Assembly: GCA_009692205.1 (NCBI GenBank)
Contig: SHZR01000012.1
Location: forward strand, 1-64,000
Reading direction: 5' to 3'
Source: Gemmatimonadota bacterium
Lineage (GTDB): Bacteria; Gemmatimonadota; Gemmatimonadetes; Longimicrobiales; Gaopeijiaceae
DNA: 64,000 nucleotides
Shown: in pieces, positions 12,754-37,934 of the stretch
Position numbering within the stretch: the stretch's first letter is position 1
Layout of the letters: each line of letters opens with the position of its first letter
The notes under the pieces: model-generated
Told to the model about the DNA's origin: nothing
The model's database searches: none
The model's input: the letters and a program-made list of their open reading frames with translations, nothing else
Position numbers and translations under genes: made by a program

Positions 12754-13043
12754 TCAACGAAGCCCTGGTGCTCAGCGCGATCATCTTCGTGATCGGCACG
12801 TTTGGCGTGCTCGTGCGCAGGAACGCGATCATCATGTTCCTCTGCATCGAGCTGCAGCTGAACGCGGTCAACGTGGCCTTCGTGGCGTTCGCGAACCTGT
12901 ACGGGATCGAGGGGCAGATCTTCGTGTTCTTCGTGATGACCGTGGCGGCGGCCGAGGCCGCGGTCGGTCTCGCGATCATCATCTCGATCTTCCGCCACTA
13001 CGAGACGGTCGACGTGGGCAGCTTCAACCTGCTGAAGTGGTAA
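12750..13043 (+). CDS. nuoK: NADH-quinone oxidoreductase subunit K
   Basis: A 97-residue three-helix membrane subunit. The two conserved membrane glutamates of the proton path are present: one in [14 protein letters not shown] and one in [12 protein letters not shown]. Length is normal. The GTG start overlaps the nuoJ stop (GTGA). Confidence 0.96.
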
Positions 13044-13047
13044 CCGA

Positions 13048-15207
13048 GTGACCGCCCTCCTGACCGCAGCGCTCGCCCAGGGAGGGTCGCCCGCAGCCGA
13101 GTCCGGCGCGTTCGAGCCGTTCCTGCCGGGCCTCATCGTGCTCCTGCCGTTGCTCGGGTTCTTGGCCAACGGCGCGCTCGCGCTCGCGCACGGCCGCGAC
13201 TCGGCCAACGCGGTACGCGCGGGCGGAGAGCTCGATCTCGGCGAGCGCGGCAGCCGACCTCTGACCCACACGCTCCCAAGCTGGATCGGACCGGGCGTGC
13301 TCGGCGTCGCGTTCGTGATCACGCTCGTGAACTTCACGCGCATGCTCGGCGTGGAGCTCGCGGAGCCTGTGGTGGTGAGCTACTGGACGTGGATGGCGAC
13401 CGGGACGTTCACGGTCGACGCGGCGCTCCAGCTGGATCAGCTCTCGTTCCTCATGATGATGATCGTCACGGGGGTGGGCTTCCTCATCCACTTGTTCAGC
13501 GTCGGCTACATGCAGGACGACGCCGGCTACCCGCGCTACTTCGCCTTCCTGAACCTGTTCGTGTTCTTCATGCTCGTGCTCGTGATGGGTGCGAGCTACG
13601 CGTTGATGTTCGTGGGCTGGGAGGGCGTCGGACTCTGCTCGTACTTGCTCATCGGCTTCTGGTTCAGCGACAAGGAAAAGGCAGACGCGGGCAAGAAGGC
13701 GTTCATCGTCAACCGCATCGGCGACTTCGGCTTCCTGGTCGCGATGTTCCTGTTGTACACGACGTTCGGCACGCTCGACTTCGTGCCGGTCTTCGACGGG
13801 ACGGAGACGCTCGTGTACGGCGGGGGTCTGGTCACCGCGATCACGCTCTTCTTCTTCCTCGGCGCCGCGGGCAAGAGCGCGCAGATCCCACTCTACGTCT
13901 GGCTACCGGACGCGATGGCGGGTCCCACGCCGGTATCCGCGCTCATCCACGCGGCAACCATGGTGACTGCGGGCGTCTACTTGGTGGCGCGCTCCTCGGT
14001 GCTGTTCGCGCTCTCGCCCGTCGGGGGCGCGACCGTGGCAGGGGTGGGCGTGCTCACCGCGCTCTTCGCGGCGACCATCGCGCTCCAACAGCACGACATC
14101 AAGAAGGTGCTCGCGTACTCCACGGTCTCGCAGCTCGGCTACATGTTCGTGGGCGTGGGCGTGGGCGCGTACGCGGCGGGCGTCTTCCACCTCATGACGC
14201 ACGCGTTCTTCAAGGCGCTGCTCTTCTTGGGCTCGGGCGCGGTCATCCACTCGATGCACCACGCCTACCACCACACGCACAGCCACGAAGACGCGCAGGA
14301 CATGCGCAACATGGGCGGCCTGAAAGCGCACATGCCCATCACGTGGATCACGATGTGGATCGCGACGCTCGCGATCGCGGGCATCTGGCCGCTCGCCGGC
14401 TTCTTCTCGAAGGACGAGATCATCTGGCAGGCGGCTGCGTTCGGCGGCGCGGAGACCGCCCCGTACCCGCTGCTCTACTCGCTCTACTGGGCGATGGCGC
14501 TCGTGGCCGCGATGCTCACCGCGTTCTACATGACGCGCATGATGGTGATGACCTTCCACGGCGCGAACCGCACGGGCACCGAGGAGGCGAAGCACCTCCA
14601 CGAGGCGCCGGCGATCATGTGGGTGCCGCTCGCGGTCCTGGCGGTCGGCTCCGTGTTCGGCGGCTGGATCAACGTCCCCGAAGCGCTCCGCACCTCCGTG
14701 CTCGGCTTCGGCGGCGCGTTACCCATGAGCGAGTGGCTCCACCACTGGCTCGAGCCCATCACGGCCCGGGCGCACGAGGTGCAGCTCGAGCACCTGGGGG
14801 AGGTCGCGCACGCCGCGCCGATCGGGGGAGGGGAAGTCGCTTGGGCGATCATCTCCACCGTCGCGGCGCTCGCCGTCGTGGTCGCCGCGTTCCGCGTGGT
14901 GGGCGCGCAGAAGGTCGTGCCCGCGGCTCAGTCCCCGGCGCCCACCGGATTCGCGAAGGTCCTCTACAACAAGTACTACGTGGACGAGCACTACGACCGC
15001 TTCATCGTACGGCCGATCCTGGGCGCGTCGCGCTTCTGCTGGAAGGTGATCGATGCGACGATCATCGACGGCACCGTGAACGCCGTCGGTTGGATCGCCA
15101 AAGGCCTCGGCTGGGGCGTCAGCATGTTCCAGACCGGCAGCGTGAACACGTACGCCTTCATCCTCACGCTCGGGGTGCTCGTCATCCTCGGCGTGTCGAT
15201 ATTTTAG
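13048..15207 (+). CDS. nuoL: NADH-quinone oxidoreductase subunit L (antiporter-like)
   Basis: A 719-residue distal proton-pumping subunit. It is an antiporter-like protein with about 16 helices, ending in the long lateral helix that runs along the membrane arm. Conserved parts include L-M-F-V-G-W-E-G-V-G-L-C-S-Y-L-L-I-G-F-W, the lysine helix L-Y-V-W-L-P-D-A-M-A-G-P-T-P-V-S-A-L-I-H-A-A-T (split here as a motif description) and H-D-I-K-K-V-L-A-Y-S-T-V-S-Q-L-G-Y-M. A His-rich loop (M-H-H-A-Y-H-H-T-H-S-H) is typical of the family. GTG start, 4 bases after nuoK. Confidence 0.95.
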   Translation: MTALLTAALAQGGSPAAESGAFEPFLPGLIVLLPLLGFLANGALALAHGRDSANAVRAGGELDLGERGSRPLTHTLPSWIGPGVLGVAFVITLVNFTRMLGVELAEPVVVSYWTWMATGTFTVDAALQLDQLSFLMMMIVTGVGFLIHLFSVGYMQDDAGYPRYFAFLNLFVFFMLVLVMGASYALMFVGWEGVGLCSYLLIGFWFSDKEKADAGKKAFIVNRIGDFGFLVAMFLLYTTFGTLDFVPVFDGTETLVYGGGLVTAITLFFFLGAAGKSAQIPLYVWLPDAMAGPTPVSALIHAATMVTAGVYLVARSSVLFALSPVGGATVAGVGVLTALFAATIALQQHDIKKVLAYSTVSQLGYMFVGVGVGAYAAGVFHLMTHAFFKALLFLGSGAVIHSMHHAYHHTHSHEDAQDMRNMGGLKAHMPITWITMWIATLAIAGIWPLAGFFSKDEIIWQAAAFGGAETAPYPLLYSLYWAMALVAAMLTAFYMTRMMVMTFHGANRTGTEEAKHLHEAPAIMWVPLAVLAVGSVFGGWINVPEALRTSVLGFGGALPMSEWLHHWLEPITARAHEVQLEHLGEVAHAAPIGGGEVAWAIISTVAALAVVVAAFRVVGAQKVVPAAQSPAPTGFAKVLYNKYYVDEHYDRFIVRPILGASRFCWKVIDATIIDGTVNAVGWIAKGLGWGVSMFQTGSVNTYAFILTLGVLVILGVSIF

Positions 15208-34356: not shown

Positions 34357-34968
34357 GTGAGCGACTTCCTCACATGGCTGGACTCCCTTCCCGGACCGAC
34401 GCTCTACCTCGTGCTCGGTGTGGGCGCGGCGCTCGAGAATGTGATTCCCGCCATTCCCGCGGATACGTTCGTCGCCCTCGGTGGGCTCCTGTCCGCGGTG
34501 GGCACCGTGAGCGCCCTGGGCGTGTTTCTCACCACGTGGCTCTTCAACGTGGCATCTGCGCTCGTGATGTACCGCCTCGGCTACTCGCACGGGAGGATGC
34601 TCTTCGAGACCCGCATCGGGCACCTCCTCCTGAAGCCCCACCAACTCGAGCGCATGGCAGGCTTCTACGCGCGCTGGGGCCTGCCGGCAATGTTCCTCAC
34701 GCGCTTCTTGCCGGGCGTGCGGTCCGTGGTGCCCGTCTTCGCCGGCATCACGCACCAGAAGTGGCTTCGCGTGGCGGTGCCGCTCGCGCTCGCGTCTGCC
34801 ATCTGGTACGGCGCTCTCGTCTTGCTGGGCCGATGGGCGGGCGAGAACCTCGACCTGTTGGGCAGGCTCCTTGGGCGCGTGCAGAGCGTGCTCGGAGCGC
34901 TGGCCATCGTGTTGGTCGCCTTGGTCGTGGCGTGGTGGTGGCGCTCGCGGCACCCACCCCGTGAGTGA
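34357..34968 (+). CDS. DedA family membrane protein
   Basis: A 203-residue inner-membrane protein with about five hydrophobic segments. The DedA/SNARE-associated pattern is E-N-V-I-P-A-I-P-A-D near the start and R-F-L-P-G-V-R-S-V-V-P-V-F-A-G in the middle (the F-x-R-x-x-P-G-x-R motif). Members move undecaprenyl phosphate or other lipids across the membrane, or affect membrane potential; which applies here is unknown. GTG start; its stop overlaps the start of xerD by 8 bases. Confidence 0.85.
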   Translation: MSDFLTWLDSLPGPTLYLVLGVGAALENVIPAIPADTFVALGGLLSAVGTVSALGVFLTTWLFNVASALVMYRLGYSHGRMLFETRIGHLLLKPHQLERMAGFYARWGLPAMFLTRFLPGVRSVVPVFAGITHQKWLRVAVPLALASAIWYGALVLLGRWAGENLDLLGRLLGRVQSVLGALAIVLVALVVAWWWRSRHPPRE

Positions 34969-35860
34969 GCCGCGCGCCTTTCGGCTCGAGCAGTTCCAGG
35001 ACTACCTGACGTACGAGCGCGGGCTGTCTTCCCGCACGGCTCAAGCATACGGGCGGGACCTCTCGCGGTGGCGCGACTTCGTGGTCGCGCAGGGCGCCGC
35101 CGGACCCGCCGAGGTGACACCACGGCAGCTGCGCGAGTGGGTGTTCTCGCTCAAGGACGCGGGCCTCGCCCCGACGTCCATCCGTCGCGCGCAGTCGGCG
35201 CTCCGTACCTACTTCGCGTTCCTCCTCGCGGACGGTGCGGTCACGGTGGATCCCACGGATCGCCTCGAGTCACCCCGTGTCACGCGCCGCCTGCCGGACT
35301 TCCTCACGGTCGAGGAGGTCAACCGCCTGCTCGAAGCGCCCGACGCGACGCGGCCTCTCTACTGGCGCGACCGCGCGATCCTCGAGGTCCTCTACGCCTC
35401 GGGCCTGCGCGTCTCCGAGCTGGCAGAACTTCCGCTCTCGGCGCTCGACCTGGAGGAAGGACTCGCCACGATCTTCGGGAAAGGCGCCAAGGAGCGCCTC
35501 GTGCCCGTCGGTGATCCCGCGCGCCGCGCGCTCGAGCGCTACCTGCGCGAGGTGCGGCCTAAACTCGACAAGGGCAAAGGGGAGGGGATCACGTTCCTGA
35601 ACGCGCGCGGGGGCCCACTCCGACGCGAGGCCGTATGGACGCTCGTCGCCGAGTGCGCTCGGCGCGCCGGCATCACCAAGCGCGTCTCACCCCACACCCT
35701 CCGTCACACCTTCGCCACCCACCTCATCGAGGGCGGAGCCGACCTTGCCGCCGTACAAGAGCTCCTAGGCCACGCCGACATCTCCGCCACCCAGATCTAC
35801 ACCCACCTGGACCGCGACTACCTCCGCGAAGTGCACCGCAAGTACCACCCGCGCGCATGA
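34961..35860 (+). CDS. xerD: Tyrosine recombinase XerD
   Basis: A 299-residue Xer-type recombinase that resolves chromosome dimers at dif with its partner. The catalytic set is complete: Arg150, Lys174, His245, Arg248, His271 and the nucleophile Tyr280 (Q-I-Y-T-H-L). The N-terminal SAM-like DNA-binding domain spans about 5-95. The GTG at 34961 overlaps the DedA stop. XerD rather than XerC is chosen from overall shape (F-Q-D-Y-L-T-Y-E-R-G-L-S near the start), so the symbol is slightly uncertain. It faces the two large palindromes. Confidence 0.87.
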   Translation: MSEPRAFRLEQFQDYLTYERGLSSRTAQAYGRDLSRWRDFVVAQGAAGPAEVTPRQLREWVFSLKDAGLAPTSIRRAQSALRTYFAFLLADGAVTVDPTDRLESPRVTRRLPDFLTVEEVNRLLEAPDATRPLYWRDRAILEVLYASGLRVSELAELPLSALDLEEGLATIFGKGAKERLVPVGDPARRALERYLREVRPKLDKGKGEGITFLNARGGPLRREAVWTLVAECARRAGITKRVSPHTLRHTFATHLIEGGADLAAVQELLGHADISATQIYTHLDRDYLREVHRKYHPRA

Positions 35861-35873
35861 CGCGCATGAGGGG

Positions 35874-35987
35874 AGCGCCGGGGTGGGAGGTCCGTCTCTC
35901 GGGCTCCGGCTGTCGCGGGTTTTCCAGCGTGAGGCATCCGTAGCACGCGACAGAGTCGCCTCGAGACGGACCTCCTACCCCGGCGCT
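35874..35987. repeat. Large palindromic element 1
   Basis: A 114-bp element between xerD and the convergent S41 protease gene. A 25-bp outer stem (35874-35898 with 35963-35987) pairs at every position apart from one G-T wobble. Inside it are the left segment TCGGGCTCCGGCTGTCGC and the right segment GCGACAG-A-GTCGCCTC, which pair only through CTGTCGCG/CGCGACAG, leaving an asymmetric internal loop and a 28-base terminal loop. Both inner segments recur in element 2. No reading frame explains it. Confidence 0.9.
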
Positions 35988-36077
35988 GTTGCGCGGTACT
36001 TAACCACGAGTGCCGCACCTATGCGCATCCAGCCGACGTCGGTGAGGAGAGAGCCTACGTGCTCGTCGCGCCTACGT

Positions 36078-36190
36078 GGGGCGGGGGTGGATCACTCGCC
36101 TCGAGGCGACGCTGTCGCGGAATACGAGGCACCGAGCCGGGGTAGCTGCGACAGCCGGAGCCCGAGAGGCGAGTGATCCGCCCCCGCCCC
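36078..36190. repeat. Large palindromic element 2, inverted relative to element 1
   Basis: A 113-bp element in the opposite orientation. Its 25-bp outer stem (36078-36102 with 36166-36190) has one T-G wobble and a sequence unrelated to that of element 1. The interior, read on the minus strand, repeats TCGGGCTCCGGCTGTCGC and GCGACAG-C-GTCGCCTC. The 90 bases between the two elements (35988-36077) show no gene. The whole gap 35861-36204 is otherwise empty; the elements could act as a bidirectional terminator for the converging genes. Confidence 0.9.
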
Positions 36191-36204
36191 AACCAGAGAA
36201 CTGA

Positions 36205-37812
36205 CTAACGCGCTCCCGTGCGAGCCGTAGTCGACGCCCCGTCCACCGCCTCGAACAACTCCGCCTGCGTCGTGTTCGTGGTGAGCAGGCGAATCGCTTC
36301 CGTCAGGGCGAGGTCGCGCTCCGCGATCACATTGGCCTCCGCACCCACGTCGTCCATCCGCTGCGCCACCGCGATGCGCGCCCGCCAGCGCAGGTACTCC
36401 CGCACCGTGGGGTCCGACGCCTGTGCGGTCGGGAGTCCCTCCTCGACCAGCGAACTCATGAGCGCTTCGAACTCCGCGTCGGTGACCCCAGCGTCATCGC
36501 CGCTTTCACGCCGAGCGGAGGCGATCTGGAAGCCGAACTCGGTCACGCGCAGGTTGAGCGGGAATTGGGCCTCGCTCGTGACACGAACCAACTCCTGCTC
36601 GGGAAGCGTGAGAGTGTCCTCCGCGATCCGCAGATCCGGGAAGATGCCCCCGCCGTTGACGAGATCCCGCCCCTGCGGAGTCGCGATGGTCGGGTAGGTG
36701 GTCGCGTCCTCGGGAAGCAGGGCGCCCTGGTGGTCGCGAGCCCGCTGGAGCGAGCGGCCGAGCGGCGTCAGCCACGTGCCGGTGGTGAAGCGCAGTCGCC
36801 GCCCGTAGGGGAGTTCCATGACGGTCTGCACCAAGCCCTTGCCGAACGTCCGCTCGCCGAGCACGAGTGCCCGGTCGTAGTCCTGGAGCGCGCCGGCGAG
36901 GATTTCCGCGCCCGACGCCGTGTAGCCGTCGACGAGCACGATGATGGGGAGGTCAGGTACCCTCGTGGGCCACTGATCGGTGAACGCCTCCTCCTCCGCT
37001 TGGGCCGCCGGGCGGCCTGGTGTCCGCTGGACCGTGCTGGCGAGCTTCGAGCCGGGCGCCAGGAACAGGTCCGCGAGCATGAGGGACTCGTCGAGGAAGC
37101 CGCCGGGGTTACGCCGGAGGTCGATGATCAGCCCGCGCGCATCATCCAAATCCCCAAGGGCAGCCTCCATCTCCTCGGCCGCCCCGCGCGCGACGCGGTC
37201 CATGATGACGTAGCCGATATCGTTCTCGAGCATGCCCCACTCCACCGCCGGCACGTGGACCTCCGCGCGGGTGATGTCGAAGGAGAGCGGCTCGTCGTAC
37301 CCAGCGCGCTGCACCCGCACGGTGACGTCTGAGCCCGCGGGCCCTCGGATGGAATCCGCCGTCAACTCGGTGCTCCAACCCGACACCTCGGTGTCGTTCA
37401 CGCCGACGATCACGTCTCCGATGATGATCCCGGCCTGATCGGCTGGGAATTTCCTGAACACGCCGGTGACGGTGACCCGCTCGCTCAGTAGCGTGATCTG
37501 CAGGCCGATGCCCGAGTAGTTCCCGGTGGTCTGCTCTTCCCAGGCATTCGACTCGACGGGCGTGAACAGCTCCGCGTACGGATCGTCGAGCGACTCGATG
37601 AGGCCGTCGAACGCCGCCTCCCAGAGCAGCGAATCGCTGAACTCCGCCATGTGCATACGCTCGATGGCCCGGATGGCGCCCGTCAGCACCTCGGCCTCCG
37701 GCGGTTCCGCGGTCGCAGCCCCACCACGCCCGGCCCGCGCGTTCTGGGCGGCGGCACCGGTCGGAACCAGCACCAGCGTGAGGAGGAGGGAGTAAGCGAT
37801 GCGGTTCTGCAT
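36205..37812 (-). CDS. S41 family C-terminal processing peptidase
   Basis: A 535-residue exported serine protease. A signal peptide (1-22, ending A-A-A-Q) is followed by an N-terminal helical part, a PDZ domain at about 98-185 (Y-S-G-I-G-L-Q-I then I-I-I-G-D-V-I-V-G-V-N) and the protease core with Ser300 (Y-T-A-S-G-A-E) and Lys325 (F-G-K-G-L-V-Q). D-L-R-R-N-P-G-G is the conserved strand before the active site. CtpA-type enzymes trim or degrade periplasmic proteins. The frame is open to 37926, but the ATG at 37812 starts the signal peptide. About 150 residues follow the core. Confidence 0.9.
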   Translation of the reverse strand: MQNRIAYSLLLTLVLVPTGAAAQNARAGRGGAATAEPPEAEVLTGAIRAIERMHMAEFSDSLLWEAAFDGLIESLDDPYAELFTPVESNAWEEQTTGNYSGIGLQITLLSERVTVTGVFRKFPADQAGIIIGDVIVGVNDTEVSGWSTELTADSIRGPAGSDVTVRVQRAGYDEPLSFDITRAEVHVPAVEWGMLENDIGYVIMDRVARGAAEEMEAALGDLDDARGLIIDLRRNPGGFLDESLMLADLFLAPGSKLASTVQRTPGRPAAQAEEEAFTDQWPTRVPDLPIIVLVDGYTASGAEILAGALQDYDRALVLGERTFGKGLVQTVMELPYGRRLRFTTGTWLTPLGRSLQRARDHQGALLPEDATTYPTIATPQGRDLVNGGGIFPDLRIAEDTLTLPEQELVRVTSEAQFPLNLRVTEFGFQIASARRESGDDAGVTDAEFEALMSSLVEEGLPTAQASDPTVREYLRWRARIAVAQRMDDVGAEANVIAERDLALTEAIRLLTTNTTQAELFEAVDGASTTARTGAR

Positions 37813-37934
37813 GGGGCGCCCTTGGCTTCGGCGTTGCGGTGCTTGAGGTTTAACCCCCGGTCGGGGAGGCTCGTTCCTCCATCTCCGAGCGGGTACTTTG
37901 TCGCAGAGCACGAGGACATACGCCAACCCCGCCC

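Follow-up and report, generated by a model that had tools for sequence, protein, structure and literature searches.

Two large hairpins of opposite orientation, lying beyond the stop codons of the converging genes for XerD and an S41 protease in the 64,000-nucleotide stretch of DNA analysed (the window), belong to a hairpin family that is real and so far unlisted; its core is conserved, its stems covary and at least one of its members has clearly been duplicated. In the reading preferred here, put at about one chance in two, they belong to a low-copy family of structured, mobile hairpins that resemble REPs and are sited at the ends of genes. A preliminary description of the region had offered a REP-like mobile palindrome, a structured RNA, an Xer-linked site and a bidirectional terminator as possibilities, and the first of these fares best, a whole hairpin having been found duplicated behind a second gene.

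Structure of the hairpins in the window

Hairpin A (114 nt, positions 35874–35987, + strand) starts 13 nt past the stop codon of xerD and lies in its sense. Hairpin B (115 nt, 36077–36191, − strand) likewise starts 13 nt past the stop codon of the S41 protease gene, in the sense of that gene, and an 89-bp spacer to which no function is assigned (35988–36076) separates the two. The product of the gene upstream of A (34871–35860, + strand, stop at 35858–35860) scores above the cut-off of TIGR02225, and that of the gene upstream of B, an S41 C-terminal processing protease (36205–37926, − strand, stop at 36205–36207), above the cut-off of TIGR00225, which confirms both identities; both starts are uncertain.

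The architecture is an outer stem of 25 or 26 bp, an asymmetric internal loop, an inner stem of 7 bp and a variable loop of about 30 nt. On the + strand of A, the variable 25-nt 5′ arm of the outer stem (35874–35898) is followed by the 5′ side of the conserved internal loop (TCGGGCTCCGG, 35899–35909), the 5′ strand of the inner stem (CTGTCGC, 35910–35916), the variable 30-nt apical loop (35917–35946), the 3′ strand of the inner stem (GCGACAG, 35947–35953), the 3′ side of the internal loop (AGTCGCCTC, 35954–35962) and the 3′ arm with which the first arm pairs (35963–35987). In B, on the − strand and in S41 sense, the order is a 26-nt 5′ arm (36166–36191), TCGGGCTCCGG (36155–36165), CTGTCGC (36148–36154), then GCGACAG (36112–36118), CGTCGCCTC as the 3′ side of the internal loop (36103–36111) and a 26-nt 3′ arm (36077–36102). 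Each read in its own sense (A +, B −), the hairpins align end to end as TCTCGGGCTCCGGCTGTCGC, a loop of about 30 nt and GCGACAGnGTCGCCTCGAG. What is inverted is the whole element; it had been proposed instead that arms were swapped, or recombined, with respect to loops. The words GAGGCA and GTAGC that both loops contain are probably common to them by chance, since the loops are too diverged for alignment.

The presence of the two large palindromes is confirmed. The outer arms of each are 96% complementary and no other such arm pairs occur in the window, the folding energies are far below those of dinucleotide shuffles (z of −6.9 to −10.7, with 0 of 200 shuffles equally stable), and the spaced inner motif has two occurrences in the window against 0.13 expected. 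The single G–T wobble originally ascribed to each stem forms in only one of the two strands; in the sense strand of B the same position is C.A. In several copies of the window's type a single mismatch lies about 14–16 bp from the inner end of the outer stem, at a conserved ACCCC in the 3′ arm (35885–35886/35975–35976 and 36088/36180 in the window, among others); it is mostly C.A in the gene sense.

Genomes of the same genus and of the same family keep the xerD/S41 pair, and none has such a palindrome at that junction. In the flanks examined the two genes lie close together, separated in one relative (G003) by a few tens of bases. Since the sampled relatives have the pair without the hairpins, the arrangement of A, spacer and B is, on this comparison, specific to the window's lineage among the genomes sampled. 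A scan of 98 relatives for the exact spaced motif gave matches in the window's own genome only. G003 also has a long hairpin whose interior differs (contig C25, L095:779–901); after it comes a partial direct repeat, in which a segment with ATGCGGCTCCTCGAGATGCG occurs twice.

Further members behind stop codons

Covariance models and scans for hairpins were used to look for other members in the genome of the window (G000), a congener (G002), two genomes of the sister genus (G033 and G134) and one of another genus (G024), among others. The hairpin census covered stretches of 511 kb of G000 and about 1.28 Mb of G024, and was supplemented by model searches; it listed intergenic hairpins only and so would miss any copies within genes, a filter that the model searches did not have. 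About 17 members beyond A and B were found (19 in all), within the same bacterial family and in several genera. The objection foreseen in the preliminary description, that there might be no more copies in this genome or its relatives, falls because additional ones exist.

A covariance model built from A and B matched a copy behind rho in the window's genome (E 7e-13), and the same model found copies behind the gene for a MacB-like permease and behind rho of G002. The 3′ ends of rho genes were examined after a model match had pointed to rho. With improved models, further copies were recovered in the sister genus (G033, G134), behind purH, an esterase gene and rne/rng, and in G000, behind tuf. 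Scans of the G024 stretches revealed related hairpins that follow rho, an SDR gene, a fumC/aspA-like gene, polA, both copies of tuf and two other ORFs; in G017 there is one, behind rho. Five members were found in G000 and eight in the sampled part of G024, roughly 1.28 Mb. In 400 kb of G000 sampled away from the known members there was no other large hairpin of this kind; a 21-bp arm pair within it (L159:190–300) looks like a tRNA region.

Eighteen of the 19 members follow a stop codon in the sense of the gene. For 16 of them the distance is 0–14 nt; the other two are 17 and 22 nt away. The distance in the window's genome is 13 nt for both xerD and the S41 gene, 14 for rho, 10 for the permease gene and 2 for tuf. 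Behind rho elsewhere it is 8 (G002), 12 (G024) and 0 nt (G017), and for the remainder 3 (SDR gene), 9 (fumC/aspA-like gene), 9 (polA), 12 (purH) and about 8–10 nt (rne/rng and the esterase gene), with 11 and 10 nt for the two tuf copies of G024, whose hairpins belong to one duplicated segment. The exception is in the sister genus (G033, contig C51, L181:1501–1626), where no stop codon precedes the hairpin in its own sense; the probable start of era is about 47 nt downstream of it, on the opposite strand. The presence of a hairpin behind rho in four genomes and behind tuf in two hints that the copies are old and bound to their sites rather than often moving.

Conserved core and compensatory change

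Members are 80–142 nt long, with a variable outer stem of 18–28 bp, a short inner stem that is usually present, and a variable loop. The asymmetric internal loop, described as conserved on the strength of A and B, keeps its letters across genera. One type of it (GGCTCCGRCT with CAGAGTCGCCTC) occurs in two genera and is more diverged in G002, a second (TTCG-CTCAGG with CAATGTCGCYGC) occurs in G024, and a third consists of TCCGCGAAAGG with CAACATCGCTSC. The three types are likely homologous, since CANNRTCGC and position are common to all, though the comparison across types is one of short motifs.

The pairing is kept while the letters change. When A, B and the rho copy are aligned, 98% of pair cells are standard and 12 of the 35 pairs show two-sided changes; sliding the partner by 1–3 columns leaves at most 2 such pairs. 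The addition of the G002 and G033 sequences raises this to 21 of 35 pairs, with pairing at 96% and no more than 5 such pairs in slid controls, in an alignment for which loops were trimmed, one bulged base was dropped, Ns were added for register and the G033 outer arm was partly masked. The G024 subfamily was brought into register by omitting some loop bases and, from one copy, two single bases; of its 33 scorable pairs, 21 have changed two-sidedly (slid controls at most 8). No shuffle equalled the covariation score of the three-copy, five-copy or G024 set. The inner stem is CTGCCGC/GCGGCAG in the rho copy and CTGTCGC/GCGACAG in A, a compensatory change. A fixed architecture is therefore maintained by compensatory change, and the initial impression of changed sequence with kept pairing holds in three alignments. 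The accompanying one, that the outer stems are unrelated, does not: the arms of A and B are diverged but share G-runs and other positions when aligned in register, and with the third copy, from rho, the stems look like diverged homologues that have undergone compensatory changes.

Duplication of a complete hairpin

In G024 the hairpins behind two unrelated genes, the fumC/aspA-like gene and polA (L187 and L239), agree in 101 of the 109 positions aligned, and this includes the outer stems. Each begins 9 nt past the stop codon and the match spans exactly the hairpin, while the flanks are near the shuffled background, with 9 of 300 shuffles scoring as high upstream and 120 of 300 downstream. Because identity covers the exact hairpin and the flanks do not share it beyond that background, the pair is the most direct sign that the complete hairpin is the copied unit, and a whole hairpin has duplicated in at least one case; the evidence is one pair, whose upstream flanks are slightly above the shuffles. 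A nearby gene of TnpA/RAYT type had been suggested as something to look for. No Y1 transposase (PF01797) was found in G000, G002, G033 or G134, with positive controls.

Strand signature and possible mode of action

Mismatches in the outer stems show a strand asymmetry. In the sense strand 21 are A.C and 5 G.U (p = 0.0025 if independent, which is optimistic because copies share ancestry). On the opposite strand the same 21 are G.U or G.T wobbles, so that strand pairs better. Ordinary small hairpins behind stop codons, taken for comparison, have 5 G.U and 2 A.C. Consensus folding of the G024 subfamily gives −72.3 kcal/mol for the opposite strand and −57.2 for the sense strand, whereas for the type found in the window the two strands are roughly equal. 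Since A.C outnumbers G.U in the sense strand, it is probably the opposite strand that has been selected to fold, as single-stranded DNA or as antisense RNA, though a strand-biased mutation process may be another source of it. The asymmetry partly contradicts a role in sense mRNA.

In the mechanism proposed, a putative protein would recognise the folded single strand via its internal loop. Hairpins would spread occasionally as complete units and would persist only just past a stop codon; a strong hairpin at the end of a message could be useful there or at least harmless. Candidate benefits are shielding of the 3′ end, stopping of read-through, or a tuning of translation termination like that by close-set REPs of E. 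coli, many of which lie within 15 nt of a stop codon, can stall ribosomes and act on translation (PMC12306157). Such functions we infer from the sequences. What speaks against the preferred reading is that no protein, mobilising enzyme or transcript is linked to the element and that the member near era has no preceding stop codon. It is unlikely that the hairpins constitute an undescribed class of mobile single-strand hairpin, read via the asymmetric internal loop on the non-gene strand and landing right past stop codons without an IS200-type transposase, with arms free to take any sequence that pairs.

If the preferred reading is correct, the hairpins are a new family among the few elements that colonise gene ends, and their inherent covariation record and strand signature would make their working form testable. 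Since the host genes are central ones (rho, tuf, polA, rne/rng, purH), the hairpins behind them may determine where transcripts end or how they are translated, two matters little known in these bacteria. It would also raise the matter of how hairpins move without the usual transposase.

Comparison with other hairpins at gene ends

That the hairpins are non-mobile, cis-acting RNA structures of the 3′ UTR, unusual terminators or protectors of mRNA 3′ ends that are inherited with their genes, is possible but doubtful. Their sense orientation and closeness to stop codons would fit, the rho hairpins of G000 and G002 are alike in position and orientation, and several copies have purine-rich 5′ and pyrimidine-rich 3′ arms, like the ordinary terminators of this genome. 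However, near-identical hairpins behind polA and the fumC-like gene are not to be expected from it, the sense-strand mismatches are A.C and not G.U, and no T-rich tail follows (the first 8 nt past the stem include 0–4 T, with tails such as gttgcgcg, cgtaggcg and aaggcctc). The missing T tail excludes them from the intrinsic terminators, with which they share being G+C-rich hairpins after a gene, while differing in a much longer stem, the internal loop, a 30-nt apical loop, greater proximity to the stop codon and duplication between genes. In the ordinary terminators of this genome the stem is 13–19 bp and the loop small, a T/C-rich tail follows in many cases, and the distance from the stop is about 19–31 nt. 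For a bidirectional terminator it further does not fit that there is one copy per gene, in fixed sense. Insertion of the interior into the loop of a pre-existing terminator was considered and rejected, as the outer stems are homologous between copies and have no terminator tails. Rfam gave only generic miRNA-shaped matches, below gathering, for the window and, for nine member loci, only a tRNA at gathering score.

Replication template switching could keep quasi-palindromes perfect with no selection on structure, and one event can give two-sided changes; bacteria are known to correct quasi-palindromes in this way (PMC7202029). The strand skew of the remaining mismatches would suit it too. This explanation is nevertheless improbable: it would erase the asymmetric internal loop, which is conserved across genera, and leaves both the position at stop codons and the duplication of a whole hairpin unexplained.

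Integron attC sites recombine as a folded bottom strand (PMC12901181), and a single-strand recombination site of this kind, its bottom-strand hairpin bound by a tyrosine recombinase, would resemble the present hairpins in being imperfect, directly past the stop codon of an ORF, fixed in orientation, of overlapping length and better paired on the bottom strand. Such an identity is very improbable. No GTTRRRY box is near any end in the 14 members tested (RYYYAAC occurs only twice, never at the base), and membership is excluded because these R boxes are missing. Conservation is also the reverse of that in attC, with a conserved middle and a variable hairpin base; the hosts are housekeeping genes; and no integron integrase is nearby, the neighbouring recombinase being above the XerD cut-off and far below that for integron integrases. 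The narrower idea of an Xer-linked site was given up, as the copies sit behind many unrelated genes and those away from the window have no Xer link.

In likely mode of action the hairpins are probably closest to REPs, whose mobilised form is a folded single strand (PMC3733652): both are palindromic, intergenic, behind genes and apparently mobile, and location past stop codons is typical of REPs (PMC3733652, PMC12306157). Actual membership of the IS200/IS605-derived REP/RAYT system is most improbable, and is excluded because there is no consistent GTAG or CGTC end tag in the flanks of 14 members, judged by eye, and because the four genomes searched for a Y1 transposase have none. The hairpins here are also 80–142 nt and not 20–40, have outer stems of 18–28 bp of free sequence and a conserved internal loop in place of an end tag, and occur in few copies per genome. 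The CGTC-tagged RPE palindromes of Rickettsia are likewise dispersed without a dedicated transposase (PMC3733652), but the present hairpins lack the CGTC end tag, are larger and have lower copy number.

Wider searches and neighbouring repeats

Near-exact scans for the motif in some 85,000 genomes (25 matches) and in viral contigs (3 matches) gave what were judged chance occurrences, without flanking stems. Degenerate scans of viral contigs also gave chance matches without stems, all but one inside genes, and comparison of the region with plasmids and phages by BLAST gave no match.

Several other repeats were seen in passing. Contig C7 of the window's genome has a second repeat family (L168:2470–2590, + strand; L172:2210–2370, − strand) of tandem palindromes that begin GGGTTAGCGACACCGCCGTCCT, have variable loops and are followed by a second hairpin, near stop codons. 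Inverted repeats of CTAGTGTCCTGTCCCAGAAGTTCG and similar sequences, with interiors of 112–117 nt, are present in G024 (L250:18534–18698) and G017 (L191:7405–7563 and 12984–13149), and look like the ends of small transposons (MITEs). In G024, TGTTCCACGTGGAACA occurs twice about 30 nt apart (L252:11668–11731), and the pair look like parS partition sites. In the search for rho, nearly all of 44 genomes were seen to have, besides the main Rho, a second and shorter Rho-like protein of 52–57% identity; NCBIfam includes a model named 'Rho, short form'.
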